A stretch of DNA of 35,843 nt, from assembly GCA_005888595.1 (NCBI GenBank), contig VBAL01000091.1, positions 1-35,843 on the forward strand, written 5' to 3'. Every line of letters begins with the position of its first letter. Position 1 is the first letter of the stretch. This stretch comes from Candidatus Segetimicrobium genomatis. GTDB lineage: Bacteria; Sysuimicrobiota; Sysuimicrobiia; Sysuimicrobiales; Kaftiobacteriaceae. Shown one piece after another: positions 12,652 to 34,870 of the stretch. The notes beneath the pieces are model-generated. The model was not told where the DNA came from, searched no databases, and was given only the letters and a program-made list of their open reading frames with translations. A program made the position numbers and the translations under genes.

Positions 12652-13325
12652 GTCCCCGCCACTGGCGACACCTCCTTACCGCGCTGGGCGTGATCGGCGC
12701 CACCGTGGCGCTCCATGAGGGAGCGCATGCCCTCGTCACCGCGCGCGCAGGCGGGAAGGTGAAGGAGATCGGCATCGGCTTTGGCCCTCCTCTGTTCCGC
12801 CTCCGGGTCCGCCATCTGCCCGTCGTGGTGCGGATGCTGCCGCTGGGCGGGTACGCCGCGGTGGATCCAGAGCAGATCCCGCCACGCCGCAGGATCCCGA
12901 TGCTGCTGGCCGGCCCCTTGGCCAATATCGCTGCCGGACTGCTGCTGATGCTGGCGTTCCGACGCCATCCGGTGGAGATCCCTACCGACGGCAGGCGCGT
13001 CGGCCTCACCGGGTTCGCGGGTACCCTGGCGGCTCTGGTCCGGGCCGCGGCGCGGGGTCCCGGGTCCATTGCCCGGCTGGCCGGTTCCATGAACGTCGGC
13101 CTGGGCCTCGCGAATCTGCTCCCGGTCTACCCGCTGGACGGCGGCCACGTGGTGATGAGCATCCTGGAAGAGCGCGGCGTTCCGCGCGAGACCCGCATCC
13201 GATTCGCCCGCTGGACTGCTGCCTTGTTCATCATGCTGGCGCGGGCGGCCATGCTCGGCGACCTGCGCCGCCTCGCCGGCAAGGAACCAGGCGACCAAGG
13301 AACCAGGGGACCAGACAACACGTAA
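12600..13325 (+). CDS. Site-2-protease (M50)-like integral membrane metallopeptidase
   Basis: TVALHEGAHALVTARAGG (HExxH), later NLLPVYPLDGGHVVMSILEERG (xPxDGG). True start may be downstream of 12600, since the N-terminal residues are encoded by repeat words. Confidence 0.85.
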   Translation: MREHDAMRSREARITNHGPRHWRHLLTALGVIGATVALHEGAHALVTARAGGKVKEIGIGFGPPLFRLRVRHLPVVVRMLPLGGYAAVDPEQIPPRRRIPMLLAGPLANIAAGLLLMLAFRRHPVEIPTDGRRVGLTGFAGTLAALVRAAARGPGSIARLAGSMNVGLGLANLLPVYPLDGGHVVMSILEERGVPRETRIRFARWTAALFIMLARAAMLGDLRRLAGKEPGDQGTRGPDNT

Positions 13326-13415
13326 GACGCCTCAGATAATTCAGAAGGTCAACTAAATTCAGAAGGTCAACGAGATGCTTACGTGGTCCCCGGGTTCCGT
13401 GGTCCCGAGGTTCCC
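13282..13415. repeat. Octamer inverted array C (GGAACCAN alternating with GGGACCAN)
   Basis: Left 13282-13313 aggaacca ggcgacca aggaacca ggggacca; right 13384-13415 tggtcccc gggttccg tggtcccg aggttccc; 26/32 complementary by eye, with alternating word pattern in both arms. Confidence 0.85.
13338..13371. repeat. 16-bp perfect direct repeat (AATTCAGAAGGTCAAC x2, 18-bp period) inside array C
   Basis: 13338-13353 and 13356-13371 identical; flanked by cacgtaag (13319-13326) / cttacgtg (13378-13385). Confidence 0.9.
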
Positions 13416-19012: not shown

Positions 19013-19411
19013 ATGCAGTGGCGGTCTGCTGGCGACCTTTTCGACCGTTTGCGCCGCGTGGTCCGGGCGCTGGACTTGAACTACGTCGATGTGCGGCGGA
19101 TCCGGTGCGTCCGGGTGACGGGGTCGCGCGCCAATGCCCTGGCGCGCATCTGGGGGCTGCCGCCGGTATTTCAGGACGCCCTGCGCCTCCGACCCCATTA
19201 CGTGATTGAGTTCATGGTGCCGGCGTTCGACCGGCTCCCCCACGAAGAACAGGATCGCGTGATTATCCACGAACTCCTCCACATCCCCCGGACGTTCAGT
19301 GGCGGGATCCGGCCGGAACGCTCGCCCTCGATGAGCATCAACCGGCACACCGTAGAGCGGTACTATCGGCAGTACCTGGCCGCCATGCGACAAACGAAAC
19401 AACGGGAATAG
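19013..19411 (+). CDS. Putative small metallopeptidase (HELLHIP motif)
   Basis: RPHYVIEFMVPAFDRLPHEEQDRVIIHELLHIPRTFSGGIRPE, HExxH-type. Stop codon TAG lies within the first heptamer of array F. Confidence 0.75.
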   Translation: MQWRSAGDLFDRLRRVVRALDLNYVDVRRIRCVRVTGSRANALARIWGLPPVFQDALRLRPHYVIEFMVPAFDRLPHEEQDRVIIHELLHIPRTFSGGIRPERSPSMSINRHTVERYYRQYLAAMRQTKQRE

Positions 19412-19490
19412 GGATTAGGGAGTAGGGATTGGGAATGCCCTGCCCTCACCTGTTTGGCCTGCTAATCCCTAATCCCCAATCCCCAGTCCC
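19404..19490. repeat. Heptamer inverted array F (GGGATTA / TAATCCC)
   Basis: Left 19404-19431 gggaata gggatta gggagta gggattg; right 19463-19490 taatccc taatccc caatccc cagtccc; 4+4 units, 23/28 complementary by eye. Confidence 0.92.
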
Positions 19491-20107: not shown

Positions 20108-20169
20108 CGTCCCCGTTCCCCCGCGCCGCCCCGAGCGAAGCGTGGGGGTTCCCGTCATATCGCGTAAGT

Positions 20170-20183: not shown

Positions 20184-21029
20184 ATGGTTGAGATCGACGC
20201 CCAGACAACCCTGGTCGGAATCATCGGCGATCCCGTGGCGCACTCGTTATCGCCGCGGATGCATAACGCTGCTTTCAACGCGCTGCAGATGAACTGGCGG
20301 TACGCTGCGTTTCGCGTGCCTGCGGCCGGGTTGAGCCAGGCGCTGCGTGGGATCGTGGGCCTGGGGATGGCCGGAGTCAACGTGACCATCCCCCACAAGG
20401 AATCCGCGGCAGGCGTGCTCGATGAACTGGATGACCTGGCGCGGCAGATTGGTGCCGTCAAGGGGATGCTCGATGCGTTGACGTCCGATGGAGGAATGCC
20501 GGCAGCGGGTCGTCGCTGCGTTGTGGTTGGGGCCGGTGGCGGCGGACGGGCCGCGGCGTTTGCGCTTGCGGCCGCGGGCGCCTCGCGGGTCACCGTGCTC
20601 AACCGTACCGAACGCAAGGCGCAGAGTCTCGCCGACGCGGTGCGCCGTGCCGCTCCAGGTTGCCGGGTCGAGCCGGCTCCACTCCTGGCGGAGGCGGTGG
20701 AGCGTGCTGTCGCAGATGCCGAGATCGTCGTTCATGCCACCGCGGCGACGATGTCCGCGGCGATGGGCGGCGGCGGCGGACGGGCCGACTGGCTGCAGGT
20801 CCTGGCCCGCCGCCTGCATCGGGGTATGGCCGTGCTCGACATGGTGTACACTCCGGCGTGGACGGAGTTGCTCGGCGCGGCGAAGGCGGCCGGGGCGACC
20901 GCAGTGAGCGGTCTCTCCATGCTCGTCTTCCAAGGAGCCCGCAGCTTCCAGCTGTGGACGGGACGCCAGGCGCCGCTGGATGTGATGCGGCGGGCCGTCG
21001 GACTAAACGAACTGCCGTTGAAGCGTTGA
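20184..21029 (+). CDS. aroE: Shikimate dehydrogenase-like, apparent deletion of catalytic NTD segment
   Basis: LVGIIGDPVAHSLSPRMHNAAFNALQMNWRYAAFRV, GVNVTIPHKE, VVVGAGGGGRAAAFAL, VSGLSMLVFQGARSFQLWTG; the expected AVNT..DG..xGYNTD segment is absent after ARQIGAV. Confidence 0.88.
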   Translation: MVEIDAQTTLVGIIGDPVAHSLSPRMHNAAFNALQMNWRYAAFRVPAAGLSQALRGIVGLGMAGVNVTIPHKESAAGVLDELDDLARQIGAVKGMLDALTSDGGMPAAGRRCVVVGAGGGGRAAAFALAAAGASRVTVLNRTERKAQSLADAVRRAAPGCRVEPAPLLAEAVERAVADAEIVVHATAATMSAAMGGGGGRADWLQVLARRLHRGMAVLDMVYTPAWTELLGAAKAAGATAVSGLSMLVFQGARSFQLWTGRQAPLDVMRRAVGLNELPLKR

Positions 21030-21164
21030 AACGTTGGGACGTTGAAACGAAGTATGGTTGAAACGTTGAAGCGTTGGAGCGTTGAACCGAACATGCCGAA
21101 TCGTCGTGATCCTAGGTTTCCATGGCTTTCACGTTTCAACGTTTCAACGTTTCAACGTTCCAAC
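21016..21164. repeat. Octamer inverted array G (CGTTGAAA / CGTTTCAA)
   Basis: Left sub-arrays 21016-21049 (cgttgaag cgttgaaa cgttggga cgttgaaa cg) and 21057-21089 (gttgaaa cgttgaag cgttggag cgttgaac cg); right 21132-21164 (cgtttcaa x3, cgttccaa, c). Confidence 0.93.
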
Positions 21165-21187: not shown

Positions 21188-22309
21188 ATGCTGCGCTTTC
21201 TAACGGCCGGGGAATCTCACGGGAAGGCGTTGACCGCTGTCGTGGAGGGACTGCCGGCCGGGCTTGGGGTGAGCGAGGACGCCGTCAACGCGCAGATGAT
21301 CCGCCGCCAGCTTGGCTACGGCCGGAGCGTGCGGATGAAGCTGGAAGCAGACCACGTAGAGCTCGTGTCAGGCGTCATGGGCGGGCAGACCATCGGGGGA
21401 CCCGTCGCGCTGCGCATTGAGAACCGCGATGCCAGAGCTGATGAGCCGCCCCTCACTCGACCGCGGCCCGGGCATGCCGATCTCGTCGGCACCATGAAGT
21501 TTGGTTTTGACGATGCCCGGCGCGCCCTGGAACGCGCCAGCGCCCGGGAGACCGCGGCCCGGGTGGCGGTCGGCGCCCTCTGCCGGACCCTGTTGAACGA
21601 GTTCGGCATACAGGTGTGTAGCCACGTCGTGGAGATCGGCGGCGTCGCGATCCGCACACGGCCGGAGCGCTGGGAGGACATTCCATCGCTCGCGGAGGCC
21701 TCCGAGCTCCGATGTGTCGATGCCGGCGCGGAAGGGGAGATGCGGGCGGCGATCGATGATGCGCGCCAACGTGGCGACACCCTGGGCGGCGTGTTCGAGG
21801 TCATCGCCCTGGGCGTCCCGCCGGGGTTGGGGAGCTATGTGCACTGGGACCGGAAGCTGGACGGGCGCCTGGCCCAGGCGGTGATGTCCATCCACGCCGT
21901 CAAGGGGGTCGAAGTCGGCCCAGGATTCGAGATGGCACGCACGCCGGGCTCGCGCGCCCATGACGAGATCTTCTGGACCCGCGGGCGCGGCTTTTTCCGA
22001 GAGACCAACCGCGCCGGGGGAACCGAGGGCGGGGTCACCACCGGGGCGCCGGTGGTAGTGCGGGGAGCGATGAAGCCGCTGTCTACGCTGATGTCTCCGC
22101 TGCGATCTGTCGACATTAAGACCAAGGAAGCGATCACCGGCGCGGTCGTCCGCAGCGACGTCTGTGCGGTACCGGCCGCCGGCGTCGTGGCAGAGTCCAT
22201 GGTGTGTTTCGTGCTGGCCGACGCCTTGTTGGAGAAGTTTGGGAGTGACAGTCTTTCCGATATCAAGATGGCATACGAGGCGTATCTACGGCGGATCAAG
22301 GAGATGTGA
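21188..22309 (+). CDS. aroC: Chorismate synthase
   Basis: MLRFLTAGESHGKALTAVVEGLPAGLGV; GGVTTGAPVVVRGAMKPLSTL. The ORF-track start at 21122 reads through repeat G; natural ATG 21188. Confidence 0.95.
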   Translation: MLRFLTAGESHGKALTAVVEGLPAGLGVSEDAVNAQMIRRQLGYGRSVRMKLEADHVELVSGVMGGQTIGGPVALRIENRDARADEPPLTRPRPGHADLVGTMKFGFDDARRALERASARETAARVAVGALCRTLLNEFGIQVCSHVVEIGGVAIRTRPERWEDIPSLAEASELRCVDAGAEGEMRAAIDDARQRGDTLGGVFEVIALGVPPGLGSYVHWDRKLDGRLAQAVMSIHAVKGVEVGPGFEMARTPGSRAHDEIFWTRGRGFFRETNRAGGTEGGVTTGAPVVVRGAMKPLSTLMSPLRSVDIKTKEAITGAVVRSDVCAVPAAGVVAESMVCFVLADALLEKFGSDSLSDIKMAYEAYLRRIKEM

Positions 22310-22314
22310 CCTGA

Positions 22315-22418
22315 CGTTGAAACGTTGGAACGTTGAACCGTTGAAACGTCAATGGCGACGGATGGCCGCTCGACACACGAGTCTTCGTTTCAACGCTCCA
22401 ACGCTCCAACGCTTCAAC
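22315..22418. repeat. Octamer inverted array H (CGTTGAAA / CGCTCCAA)
   Basis: Left 22315-22348 cgttgaaa cgttggaa cgttgaac cgttgaaa cg; right 22386-22418 cgtttcaa cgctccaa cgctccaa cgcttcaa c; 4+4 units, 29/33 complementary by eye. Confidence 0.93.
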
Positions 22419-27215: not shown

Positions 27216-28529
27216 ATGTTCACGCAGGGCTGGCTCCTCCTGGCGTGGTTTCTCCTCGCCGTCGGCGTGGCCACCCGGCACGCGTTTGCCTTTCTGCTGG
27301 GGCTGGTGGTTCTGGGCAGCGCGGCGGCATCATACTTGTGGGACCGGTATTGCCTGGCACGCGTGGAATACCGGCGCGCGTTTACGCCCCGTCGAGCGTT
27401 CTACGGCGAAACGGTGACCTTCACCATGGAGGTCACAAACCGAAAACCACCGCCCCGTCGAGCGTTCTACGGCGAAACGGTGACCTTCACCATGGAGGTC
27501 ACAAACCGAAAACCACTGCCGCTGGCCTGGCTGGAGGTCGTCGATGAACTTCCGCAGCAGCTGGTGCCGCTGTACGGCCGGGTGATTCCCAGCGTACGCC
27601 AGCGCCGCCATCATCTGGTGAATCTCTTTAGCGTGCGCTGGTACGAGCGGGTGCGCCGGCACACGACGCTGCGCTGCGACGCTCGTGGCTATTTTCCACT
27701 CGGCCCGGCGAGGCTGCGATCGGGCGATATCTTCGGCTTCACCGTGCGCGGCATCGACAGCGAGCAGGTGGATCACCTGCTCGTCTACCCGAGGGTCGTT
27801 CCCCTGGCCGCGCTGGGGCTCCCCGCCCTCTACCCGCTGGGCGATGTCCGGCGCCGGCATCTGCTCGAGGACCCCACCCGGATTGCCGGCACCCGCGAGT
27901 ATTCTCCGGGCGATCCCCTGCGCGCGATTCATTGGAAGGCAACCGCGCGGGTGCAGGCGCTGCGGTCTAAGCAGTACGAGGCATCGGCCAGCCATCGCCT
28001 CGTGATTTTCGTCAATCTCGACACGCTGGGCAGGTATGCGGAGTACCGAGGCTTTGTGCGGCCGCTGTTGGAGTTGAACATCATGACCACAGCCTCGATC
28101 GCGAACTGGGCTGTGGAGTCCGGGCATCACCTCGGGCTCTTCGCCAACGGCTACCTCCCGCAGGGGCTGCGATGGGTGCGCATTCTGCCGGCTGCCGGGA
28201 CCAGCCAGCTGGCATCGGTGCTCGAAGCACTGGCCAAGATCTTTCCCACCCCCGTCATGCCGATTGGAGACCTGATGCAGCTGGAGGCCTCCGCCCTGCC
28301 GTGGGGCACCACCGCGGTTGTGGTGACTGCTGTGACGGATGATCCGCTTCGGGTCGGACTGGCGCGGCTGGCGGACGCCGGACACGCCACCGTGGTGATT
28401 CTCATCGGCGACGAGGTGGCCCCGCCGGACATGGCGGTGGCAACGTATCGCGTGCCTGAGGCGCGCGGCTGGCAGGCGCTCGATGGCATTGTGCCCCAGA
28501 CGATTCGCGCAGTTGAGGGTGAGCGCTGA
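27216..28529 (+). CDS. DUF58 domain-containing protein with 22-aa internal tandem duplication
   Basis: RYSPRRAFYGETVTFTMEVTNRK-type DUF58 N-part, DPTRIAGTREYSPGDPLRAIHWKATARVQALRSKQYE (DUF58 core). Confidence 0.9.
   Translation: MFTQGWLLLAWFLLAVGVATRHAFAFLLGLVVLGSAAASYLWDRYCLARVEYRRAFTPRRAFYGETVTFTMEVTNRKPPPRRAFYGETVTFTMEVTNRKPLPLAWLEVVDELPQQLVPLYGRVIPSVRQRRHHLVNLFSVRWYERVRRHTTLRCDARGYFPLGPARLRSGDIFGFTVRGIDSEQVDHLLVYPRVVPLAALGLPALYPLGDVRRRHLLEDPTRIAGTREYSPGDPLRAIHWKATARVQALRSKQYEASASHRLVIFVNLDTLGRYAEYRGFVRPLLELNIMTTASIANWAVESGHHLGLFANGYLPQGLRWVRILPAAGTSQLASVLEALAKIFPTPVMPIGDLMQLEASALPWGTTAVVVTAVTDDPLRVGLARLADAGHATVVILIGDEVAPPDMAVATYRVPEARGWQALDGIVPQTIRAVEGER
27385..27516. repeat. Perfect 66-bp tandem duplication in the DUF58 gene
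   Basis: 27385-27450 and 27451-27516 identical (cgccccgtcgagcgttctacggcgaaacggtgaccttcaccatggaggtcacaaaccgaaaaccac). Confidence 0.97.
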
Positions 28530-28578: not shown

Positions 28579-29997
28579 ATGAAGGTCGAGGTGCGGCAGC
28601 TGCTTGCGCTGACCATCGTCGCCATAGAGTTCACATGGGCCTACCCGTGGGTGCTGCTGGTGAGCGGCACCTTCTACGGGCCGTCGGCGGCGCCGTTGCT
28701 TCCTCCGGCTTCGGCGTTCGCATTGCTGATGCTGGCGTATCTTGCTGTCCGCGCGGCTGTGACGCGGCCGTGGTCGCTGCGCGACACGCGGGTGATGATC
28801 GTTGCGGCCGGATTCCTCAGCGGGATGACTGCGGTGAGGCTTGCGTATTATCCGGGGCGCGGACAGATGGATTTCCGCTGGATCGGGACGCTCCTGCTGG
28901 CCGCGCACGACGCGCTGCCGGCGATCACGCCCGCGGTCATGGCCGCGCTCCTGGCGACGGTGCTGTGGTGGCGCGGCGTGGTGTTGAGTGAGCGGGAGTT
29001 CGGCTACTTCGAAGTTGACCGGGCTTTCCGCCGGGGGATCGGCTGGAGTGTGCTGTTTGTGATTCTGCTGGCAGCCTATGGAGATACTCGCGGCTTCACA
29101 CTCACGGCTGCGGCTCCAGCCTACCTGCTGGCGTTCTTCTCTCTCTGCCTCATGACGCTGTCCATCACCCGGCTGCTGATGTTGTGGGAAGAGACACACG
29201 CCGATCCGGCGCAGGCGCTGGCCGCCAACCGGCACTGGTTGCTGTTGCTCCTCGGAGTCGTCGGCGTAATCTTCGTCTCGGCCGCCGGGCTGGCCACGGC
29301 CGTGCATGTGGAGTTTCGACCTGTGCTGGCCCGGCTGCTGCGCCCGCTGGCCCCCCTGGCGGAGGCACTCTTTTATGCGCTCTTCGCCGTGGCGATGGTG
29401 GTCGCGCGCGCGCTCGTCTTCGTGTTCGCGCGGCTGCCGTTCCGCCGGATGATCTCCCCAACGCCGTCGGCGGCGCCTCCGTCATTTCGTGACCTGTTGA
29501 AGGACTTACCGCCACGACTGGTGAGCGGGGCGCGGTGGGGCATGGTGGCGGTAGCCATCGCCGTTCTGGTTATTCTCGTCGCCATCTCGGTGGTGCGGGC
29601 CCGCCGGAGGATGCGCAGAAACGACGAAGATGAGCGCGAATCGGTATGGTCGAGCCAGCTTGCGCTCAGCGGGTTGGGCGAGGCATGGCGGAGGCTATGG
29701 CGCCGCCAGCGCCTCGTAGGGCGCGATCACGAGGTTGCCGCAGTGGGCGCCATCCGGGCCATCTACCGGGAGATGCTGCGTCTTGGTGCGGCGGCGAACT
29801 CCCCCCGGGCGCGGCATCAGACCCCTCATGAGTATCGCCCGGTGCTGGCCGGCCGCCTGCCGGCGCGTGGAGTGGACATCGAGACCGTTACCGAGGCCTA
29901 CGTGCGGGCACGGTATTCGCCGCGTCTGCCGGAACTGTCCGAGATTTCCGGCGCGCGGGAAGCACTCGAACGCATCAAAACGTCCGCTAATCCTTGA
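28579..29997 (+). CDS. Multi-TM protein with C-terminal DUF4129-like domain
   Basis: Several hydrophobic segments, then VGAIRAIYREMLRLGAAANSPRARHQTPHEYRPVLAGRLPARGVDIETVTEAYVRARYSPR (DUF4129-like); moxR-DUF58 context. Confidence 0.8.
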   Translation: MKVEVRQLLALTIVAIEFTWAYPWVLLVSGTFYGPSAAPLLPPASAFALLMLAYLAVRAAVTRPWSLRDTRVMIVAAGFLSGMTAVRLAYYPGRGQMDFRWIGTLLLAAHDALPAITPAVMAALLATVLWWRGVVLSEREFGYFEVDRAFRRGIGWSVLFVILLAAYGDTRGFTLTAAAPAYLLAFFSLCLMTLSITRLLMLWEETHADPAQALAANRHWLLLLLGVVGVIFVSAAGLATAVHVEFRPVLARLLRPLAPLAEALFYALFAVAMVVARALVFVFARLPFRRMISPTPSAAPPSFRDLLKDLPPRLVSGARWGMVAVAIAVLVILVAISVVRARRRMRRNDEDERESVWSSQLALSGLGEAWRRLWRRQRLVGRDHEVAAVGAIRAIYREMLRLGAAANSPRARHQTPHEYRPVLAGRLPARGVDIETVTEAYVRARYSPRLPELSEISGAREALERIKTSANP

Positions 29998-30002
29998 CAG
30001 TT

Positions 30003-30012
30003 GTGTTATAAT
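30003..30012 (+). promoter_or_regulatory. Extended -10 promoter (TGTGTTATAAT) upstream of T-box leader
   Basis: TG-T-TATAAT at 30004-30012; no well-spaced -35. Confidence 0.55.
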
Positions 30013-30145
30013 TCCGCTTACCAATTCCATAGTGGCCAATGATCGAGAAGAGTACCCGCCGTCGTGTTTCGAAGAGAGCCGCGGGCCGGTGAGAACGCGG
30101 CAGCCAGACGGTGAGGGAATGGACTCGTGAGGCGCGCACCAAACA

Positions 30146-30218
30146 AGTGAAGAGTGATTAGTGAATAGTGAGTACCTGCTGGCAGTCAGCAGTCACTATT
30201 CACCATTCACTATTCACT
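30146..30218. repeat. Heptamer inverted array J inside T-box leader (AGTGAAT / ATTCACT)
   Basis: Left 30146-30173 agtgaag agtgatt agtgaat agtgagt; right 30191-30218 agtcact attcacc attcact attcact; 4+4 units. Confidence 0.93.
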
Positions 30219-30275
30219 GTAGTAGGTTGCGCCGGTCCTCCACCGTAACTCCGGAGTAACGAGCGCCGGCCCAAA

Positions 30276-30344
30276 CTGAAGTTGGAAAGTTGAAAGTTGA
30301 AGAGTTGAATCCAACCCTCCAACTTTCCAACTCTTCAACTCTGC
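30276..30344. repeat. Octamer inverted array K inside T-box leader (GAAAGTT / AACTTTC)
   Basis: Left ctgaagtt ggaaagtt gaaagtt gaagagtt (30276-30306); right aaccctcc aactttcc aactcttc aactctgc (30313-30344). Confidence 0.88.
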
Positions 30345-30387
30345 AGTTGAGGGCGGGAAGCCGGGTGGCACCGCGGGAGTTTCTAGT

Positions 30388-30430
30388 ACCTCTCGCCCCC
30401 TTGATGGGGTGAGAGGTGTTTGTTTTTTGT
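30388..30430 (+). terminator. T-box rho-independent terminator
   Basis: acctctcgcccc (30388-30399) / ggggtgagaggt (30406-30417), then gtttgttttttg. Confidence 0.92.
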
Positions 30431-30456
30431 GAGCTGTGTTTCGGGCGAGACTTGGA

Positions 30457-30541
30457 AGAACGCAGATGGCAGAACGCAGCAGGCAGAAAGCATTATCTCA
30501 GGGTAGTCTGCGTTCTGCATTCTGCGCTCTGCGTTCTGTCA
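30457..30541. repeat. Heptamer inverted array L (AGAACGC / TCTGCGT)
   Basis: Left 30457-30491 agaacgc agatggc agaacgc agcaggc agaaagc; right 30507-30541 tctgcgt tctgcat tctgcgc tctgcgt tctgtca; 5+5 units. Confidence 0.93.
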
Positions 30542-30606
30542 GGGGTGGTCGACGTGGCCGCTGAAAGCGAGAAGCCGGAATGGGACTTTTCATCGGGGGC
30601 GAGAGC

Positions 30607-34183: not shown

Positions 34184-34819
<636 letters not shown>

Positions 34820-34870
34820 CTGCGTTCTGCATTCTGCGGTCTGCATTCTGGCATTAGCGGGGAGGCCCGT

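Follow-up and report, generated by a model that had tools for sequence, protein, structure and literature searches.

Tandem-repeat arrays of 7-9-bp units with the geometry of hairpins at gene 3' ends, and a double left arm between aroE and aroC, in a genus of the Sysuimicrobiota

REP and BIME elements are often located close behind stop codons, and the STRR heptamers of heterocystous cyanobacteria are tandem heptamers that lie between genes and are not organised as converging arms. REP elements consist of a palindrome of 20-40 nt with a GT(A/G)G head at its foot and represent abundant, RAYT-associated extragenic hairpins (PMC2817692, PMC3733652). The TAACTGA repeats of the Beggiatoaceae are intergenic heptamer arrays dispersed through the genome, with a single unit in direct orientation that is placed before start codons (PMC4679880). 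The closest precedent for the arrays described below is provided by the heptamer repeats GGGAATC and GGGGA(C/T)T of Xanthomonas and Nostoc, which are dispersed, intergenic blocks of about four short tandem units (Rehm et al. 2015, PMC4692102), are located near or over stop codons and in few divergent gaps, and differ in length and sequence between related species (PMC4692102). In Xanthomonas, 70-75 convergent pairs of these repeats could form hairpins, and G-quadruplex formation was proposed, with the function remaining unknown (PMC4692102). The literature available to us, which was covered in part, yielded no description of such arrays for the phylum studied here.

The stretch of DNA analysed, hereafter the window, is a contig of 35,843 nt (C311) belonging to the 2.94-Mb MAG of the soil bacterium Candidatus Segetimicrobium genomatis (G000), whose AroC protein shares 98, 88 and 83% identity with those of the nearest named relatives, 'Terrabacteria group bacterium ANGP1' and Armatimonadetes MAGs. 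The gap between aroE and aroC contains array G, which is composed of CGTTGRAR octamers arranged as four plus four units on the left and four units on the right (Table 1). The extent of this array, its twelve octamers in three blocks, the AAGTATG separator and the location of the aroE stop codon in the first block had been reported in a preliminary description and were all recovered from the window sequence. The stop codon lies inside the second octamer of block 1, and the array encodes the final residues of AroE (...VGLNELPLKR*). Between consecutive genes of the aro cluster, the next start follows only ~25-30 nt 3' of the arrays.

Table 1. Coordinates of array G, of the adjacent genes and of further repeat arrays in the window
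Feature	Position	Strand	Remarks
aroE (shikimate dehydrogenase)	20184..21029	+	Pfam Shikimate_dh_N, 5e-27; translation
First (extra) left block of array G	21016..21049	+	octamers GTTGAAGC GTTGAAAC GTTGGGAC GTTGAAAC; contains the aroE stop TGA (21027-21029); missing from G002
Separator AAGTATG, 7 nt	21050..21056	+	aligns, as a diverged copy, with AACATG, the first loop bases 3' of block 2
Second left block, four octamers	21057..21089	+	orthologous to the one left block that G002 has; differs at 1 of 33 positions
Loop, 42 nt	21090..21131	+	40/42 (95%) identical to G002; no further copy in the congener sequence searched
Right arm, four octamers	21132..21164	-	CGTTTCAA when read on the + strand; sequence
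aroC (chorismate synthase)	21188..22309	+	Pfam Chorismate_synt, 1e-116
CGTTGAAA sister array, gap between aroC and aroK-aroB	22314..22418		G002 has a 9-mer array (CTTGGTCTA) instead
Array with two arms of CAAGGAAC/CCAGGCGAC-type octamers	13280..13414		at a gene end (13325)
GGGATTA heptamer array	19404..19490		first arm includes the TAG stop codon of the upstream gene; missing from G001
AGTGAAT heptamer array	30146..30218		detector
AAGTTGA array	30279..30342		sequence
CAGAACG heptamer array	30457..30537		detector
CAGAACG heptamer array	34760..34855		overlaps a gene end at 34819

Each left block had been described as aligning with the right arm at 28-29 of 33 positions; recomputation gave 29/33 paired positions (88%) for block 1 (21017-21049 versus 21132-21164) and 28/33 (85%) for block 2 (21057-21089 versus the same arm). 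RNA folding of positions 21016-21164 yielded a minimum energy of -62.7 kcal/mol, compared with -40.1 +/- 3.8 kcal/mol for shuffled sequences (z = -6.0), whereas near-equal energies of -49.7 and -48.1 kcal/mol were obtained when pairing was restricted to block 1 and block 2, respectively. In these models, alternative hairpins via one or the other left block, as suggested in the preliminary description, are possible. The minimum-energy fold is, however, already a composite of half of block 1 and half of block 2, so that a switch is not required as an explanation. No T run follows position 21164 in the window sequence, and the U tract of an intrinsic terminator is thus absent. A search of Rfam returned nothing above the gathering score and only sub-threshold matches to microRNA precursors, as expected for any long hairpin.

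The second suggestion, a duplication of one arm, gains support from the comparison with relatives. A single-block version is present at the orthologous aroE-aroC site of the congener G002, where positions 21057-21164 of the window, including the loop, are identical at 104 of 108 positions, with the flanking genes of both genomes being ~80-85% identical. The extra segment of the window amounts to exactly 40 bp, is placed after CTGCC and matches block 2 together with the adjoining first bases of the loop (GAAGTATG vs GAACATG) in ~34 of 40 columns. The alignment supports the view that the double left arm represents a local 40-bp tandem duplication of arm and loop edge. Block 1 and block 2 have diverged from each other more than block 2 has from its counterpart in G002. 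The duplication may accordingly predate the split from that congener and have been lost there, or block 1 may have changed at a later time, so that either a gain in the window or a loss in G002 may underlie the difference. A sequence constraint stronger than that on genes was also considered, but the evidence is mixed, as the elements retained between G000 and the congener G001 are less alike than the genes (0.87 vs 0.94).

G001, with 98% AroC identity, contains in the same gap two left blocks of three and four AGTTGRAR octamers, a right block of four and an unrelated loop. The double arms of the two genomes differ in both unit and loop, and a shared origin is therefore not supported. The more distant G007 (78%) carries the octamer AGCTGRAR (L022), and the site thus displays three different octamers across G000/G002, G001 and G007. 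In all four genomes the aroE stop codon is a TGA within an early unit of the first block. No array was detected in the aroE-aroC gap of G003, G005, G006 and G009. In G004, the place taken by octamer arrays in the window's congeners is occupied by another short hairpin, CCCTCTCCCC...GGGAGAGGG (L093).

Array G belongs to a class of repeat-built hairpins at gene 3' ends that is spread over the whole genome. A detector for inverted pairs with both arms tandemly periodic, with periods of 5-12 allowed, found 59 elements in ~325 kb of G000, a sample in which matches are over-represented. Composition-shuffled sequence (174 kb) yielded no element, so that the class cannot be attributed to chance. The catalogue comprises 169 elements in ~0.92 Mb of the three congeners, i.e. 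77 in 490 kb of G000, 52 in 264 kb of G001 and 40 in 169 kb of G002. Arbitrarily chosen contigs of G000 contained 8 elements in 92 kb, a density that extrapolates to several hundred elements per genome. The best period was 7, 8 or 9 in all elements, which have arms of about four units, and in GTTGRAR, the largest family, 76 of 100 blocks consist of four units. More than ten unit families were distinguished, and none of the main families occurs in opposite polarity. The order of blocks is always '> <' and never '< >', and a '>> <' order was encountered at three places only, two of which are aroE-aroC sites, the script merging the two left blocks of the window into a run of eight. A CGTTGAAA array with a double left arm, flanked by two tRNA-like sequences, was noted at L124:10244-10363.

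The arrays are closely tied to the ends of genes. According to gene calls made with a purpose-written codon-usage gene finder, 6.6% of the array bases are coding versus 86% overall, and the edge of an array is separated from the stop codon by a median of 5 nt (quartiles 0 and 12). Of 173 stop codons, 42 are located inside the array. Arrays occupy 139 of 699 tandem, 17 of 58 convergent and 5 of 60 divergent gaps, i.e. only about one fifth of all gaps. Where a tandem gap leaves at least 120 nt of free space, 14 of the 18 arrays begin at most 16 nt from the upstream stop codon or modestly overlap it. Arrays between convergent genes are mostly no further than ~15 nt from either stop codon and fill the space between the two.

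In comparison with the described systems, the arrays resemble the Xanthomonas and Nostoc heptamers in their tandem blocks of about four units, their location near stop codons and their rarity in divergent gaps. They differ in comprising more than ten unit families side by side (7, 8 and 9 bp), in being paired as hairpins as a rule, and in the exchange of one family for another at orthologous sites. Moreover, neither GGG nor CCC occurs in the units of two thirds of the elements (112 of 169, among them those with GTTGAAAC), and the design cannot therefore be explained in general by G-quadruplex formation. Like REP and BIME elements, the arrays are extragenic hairpins of high copy number in a genome that encodes a RAYT, but they measure 55-150 bp, have arms of tandem units and show no excess of GT(A/G)G heads, since GTAG or GTGG was found near 14 of 338 array ends compared with 59 of 845 random 12-mers. 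The Beggiatoaceae repeats are likewise dispersed intergenic arrays, whereas those studied here are inverted, follow stop codons and use many units; tandem intergenic units are also common to the STRR heptamers, which lack the converging arms. Tandem repeats behind stop codons were thus known in bacteria and had been attributed to G-quadruplexes, and the same design is now seen with quadruplex-incapable units.

The turnover of these elements is fast between congeners whose genes are ~93-95% identical. Orthologous sites exist in four states: inherited elements, a related unit with a different loop, an unrelated unit, and sites that are empty or decayed. Non-inherited G000 sites nevertheless still carry an array in 12 of 18 cases in G001 and in 13 of 20 cases in G002, compared with 22-24% of comparable gaps (p = 6e-5 and 1e-4, respectively). 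For unrelated units alone, 5 of 11 (G001) and 7 of 14 (G002) sites have an array, which is a weak excess (p = 0.07 and 0.03). When 128 loops were compared with the ~0.92 Mb of congener sequence, which includes about a sixth of the G000 genome, they matched at orthologous sites, and non-orthologous matches were limited to 'loops' containing unit arrays or other short dispersed repeats. Units are thus common genome-wide while loops are private, and copy-and-paste of whole elements was discarded on these grounds for the sequence searched. A MITE-like mobile element is likewise not supported, as the loops are not common to the copies and no target duplication was evident by eye at pairs of filled and empty sites. 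A mechanism in which the hairpin lets one arm serve as template for its partner was rejected for the GTTGRAR family, in which arms match no better within an element (0.845) than between elements (0.850), and repeat addition by a telomerase- or reverse-transcriptase-like enzyme is unsupported, with no RVT_1 gene found in G000-G002 (MAGs 88-93% complete). Congeners that swap units at one site provide a natural experiment that separates structure from sequence.

The stop anchoring, the hairpin geometry and the interchangeability of units point to a structural role on the mRNA just after the stop codon. On balance, we give about even chances to the view that the arrays are REP-like hairpins of gene 3' ends in which the letters of the unit are replaceable, the double arm of array G being a local duplication. 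The hairpin would form directly behind, and sometimes over, the stop codon, with the arms converging around a unique loop; it could block 3' exonucleases, affect ribosome release and downstream reading, or both, and the upstream gene of an operon such as aroE-aroC-aroKB might thereby be stabilised or uncoupled from the next gene. Structure and position would outweigh the unit letters, which would permit unit families to replace each other. Base-by-base pairing is not visibly maintained, since the two arms within a GTTGRAR element are no more alike than arms taken from separate elements, and selection at the RNA level in the form of a G-U bias was not significant, with 180 G-U pairs versus 152 A-C mismatches on the sense strand (p = 0.14). 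Any such function must be dispensable, because most gaps are without arrays and most genera of the order lack them. A more far-reaching proposal, which we hold only tentatively, is that the more than ten unit families are interchangeable and compete at post-stop sites, where a lineage-specific, undescribed process would add about four units per side with fixed polarity and unique loops; if true, the four-unit rule would be general and independent of G-quadruplex formation. The arrays raise the questions of what role hairpins play right after stop codons and how arms with unique loops originate.

The main competitor of the mRNA-hairpin interpretation is that the arrays are selfish or mutational repeats, for instance mobilised by RAYT or grown by slippage, that are tolerated at 3' ends and whose hairpin effect is incidental. 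This explanation appears less probable, yet deserves serious consideration, as it would account for the fast turnover and agrees with the distribution of transposase genes. Arrays are dense in the genus of the window and were also detected in G004 (7 in ~104 kb) and G007 (4 in ~89 kb) of the same family, with base totals that are slightly altered by a shift of a few locus labels by one between G004, G005 and G011 and with unchanged hits; G005 has one weak case, and roughly 760 kb from 13 other members of the family and order contained none. Y1_Tnp genes occur in G000, G001, G002, G004, G005, G007 and G011, among them all genomes with arrays, and in none of 12 sampled relatives without them. 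G000 contains PF01797 twice, and one of the two genes, at L180:1128-2009, is a RAYT (NCBIfam NF047646, REP-associated tyrosine transposase, 83.1 bits with a cut-off of 80). The link between RAYT or Y1 transposases and arrays is suggestive, but the correlation is confounded by kinship, and G011 has a Y1_Tnp gene and no arrays in ~110 kb. Moreover, arrays are missing from the ~1 kb on either side of the RAYT gene (L180), the one of the two Y1_Tnp genes covered by this check, the other being C88. The tight anchoring to stop codons even in long gaps also argues against this explanation, and the lack of paralogous loop copies argues against a spread as whole elements. Outside the order, a survey of aroC neighbourhoods in other phyla revealed a few similar converging octamer arrays with TCGTGCTG-like units in Acidobacteria MAGs (L026:5622-5806 and L030:6958-7123).

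Unusual transcription terminators, in which a hairpin lacking a U tract would stop transcription arriving from either direction, are improbable. The arrays are located at 3' ends and would be bidirectional between convergent genes, and canonical intrinsic terminators are near the shuffled background behind most genes of G000-G002, on account of which this lineage may terminate transcripts mostly by Rho or in some unusual way. The lack of a U tract excludes the arrays from being canonical intrinsic terminators, and no enrichment of U-tract hairpins was found at gene ends with arrays. Additionally, the enrichment at convergent ends is modest, and arrays between consecutive aro genes leave little room for a new promoter before the next start. 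Still less likely is an element acting at the DNA level, i.e. a protein-binding site or a G-quadruplex or cruciform as proposed for the GGGAATC repeats of Xanthomonas. The fixed polarity and the blocks of about four units in most families, as in Xanthomonas (PMC4692102), would fit such an element; such quadruplexes are nevertheless impossible for units without GGG or CCC, and the exchange of units at one site is a poor fit to a single binding protein. An assembly artefact with collapsed or expanded repeats, although conceivable for a MAG with short contigs, is hardly credible in view of separately binned congeners that have arrays at the same sites in one-block, two-block and other-unit versions.

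Some minor features of the window were recorded in addition. A single intergenic gap (29997-30580) combines AGTGAAT, AAGTTGA and CAGAACG arrays with a canonical U-tract terminator (30385-30420). At positions 20114-20153, a short CCCCGTTCCCCCG...CGAGCGAAGCGTGGGGG stretch resembles a loop in G002, belonging to a CGGGAACG element (L161:4124), as well as spots in G001, and is possibly a second dispersed repeat. A 66-bp segment is present in 2.1 copies at positions 27385-27520, inside the coding sequence 27216-28529, and its 98% identity indicates a recent in-frame duplication.
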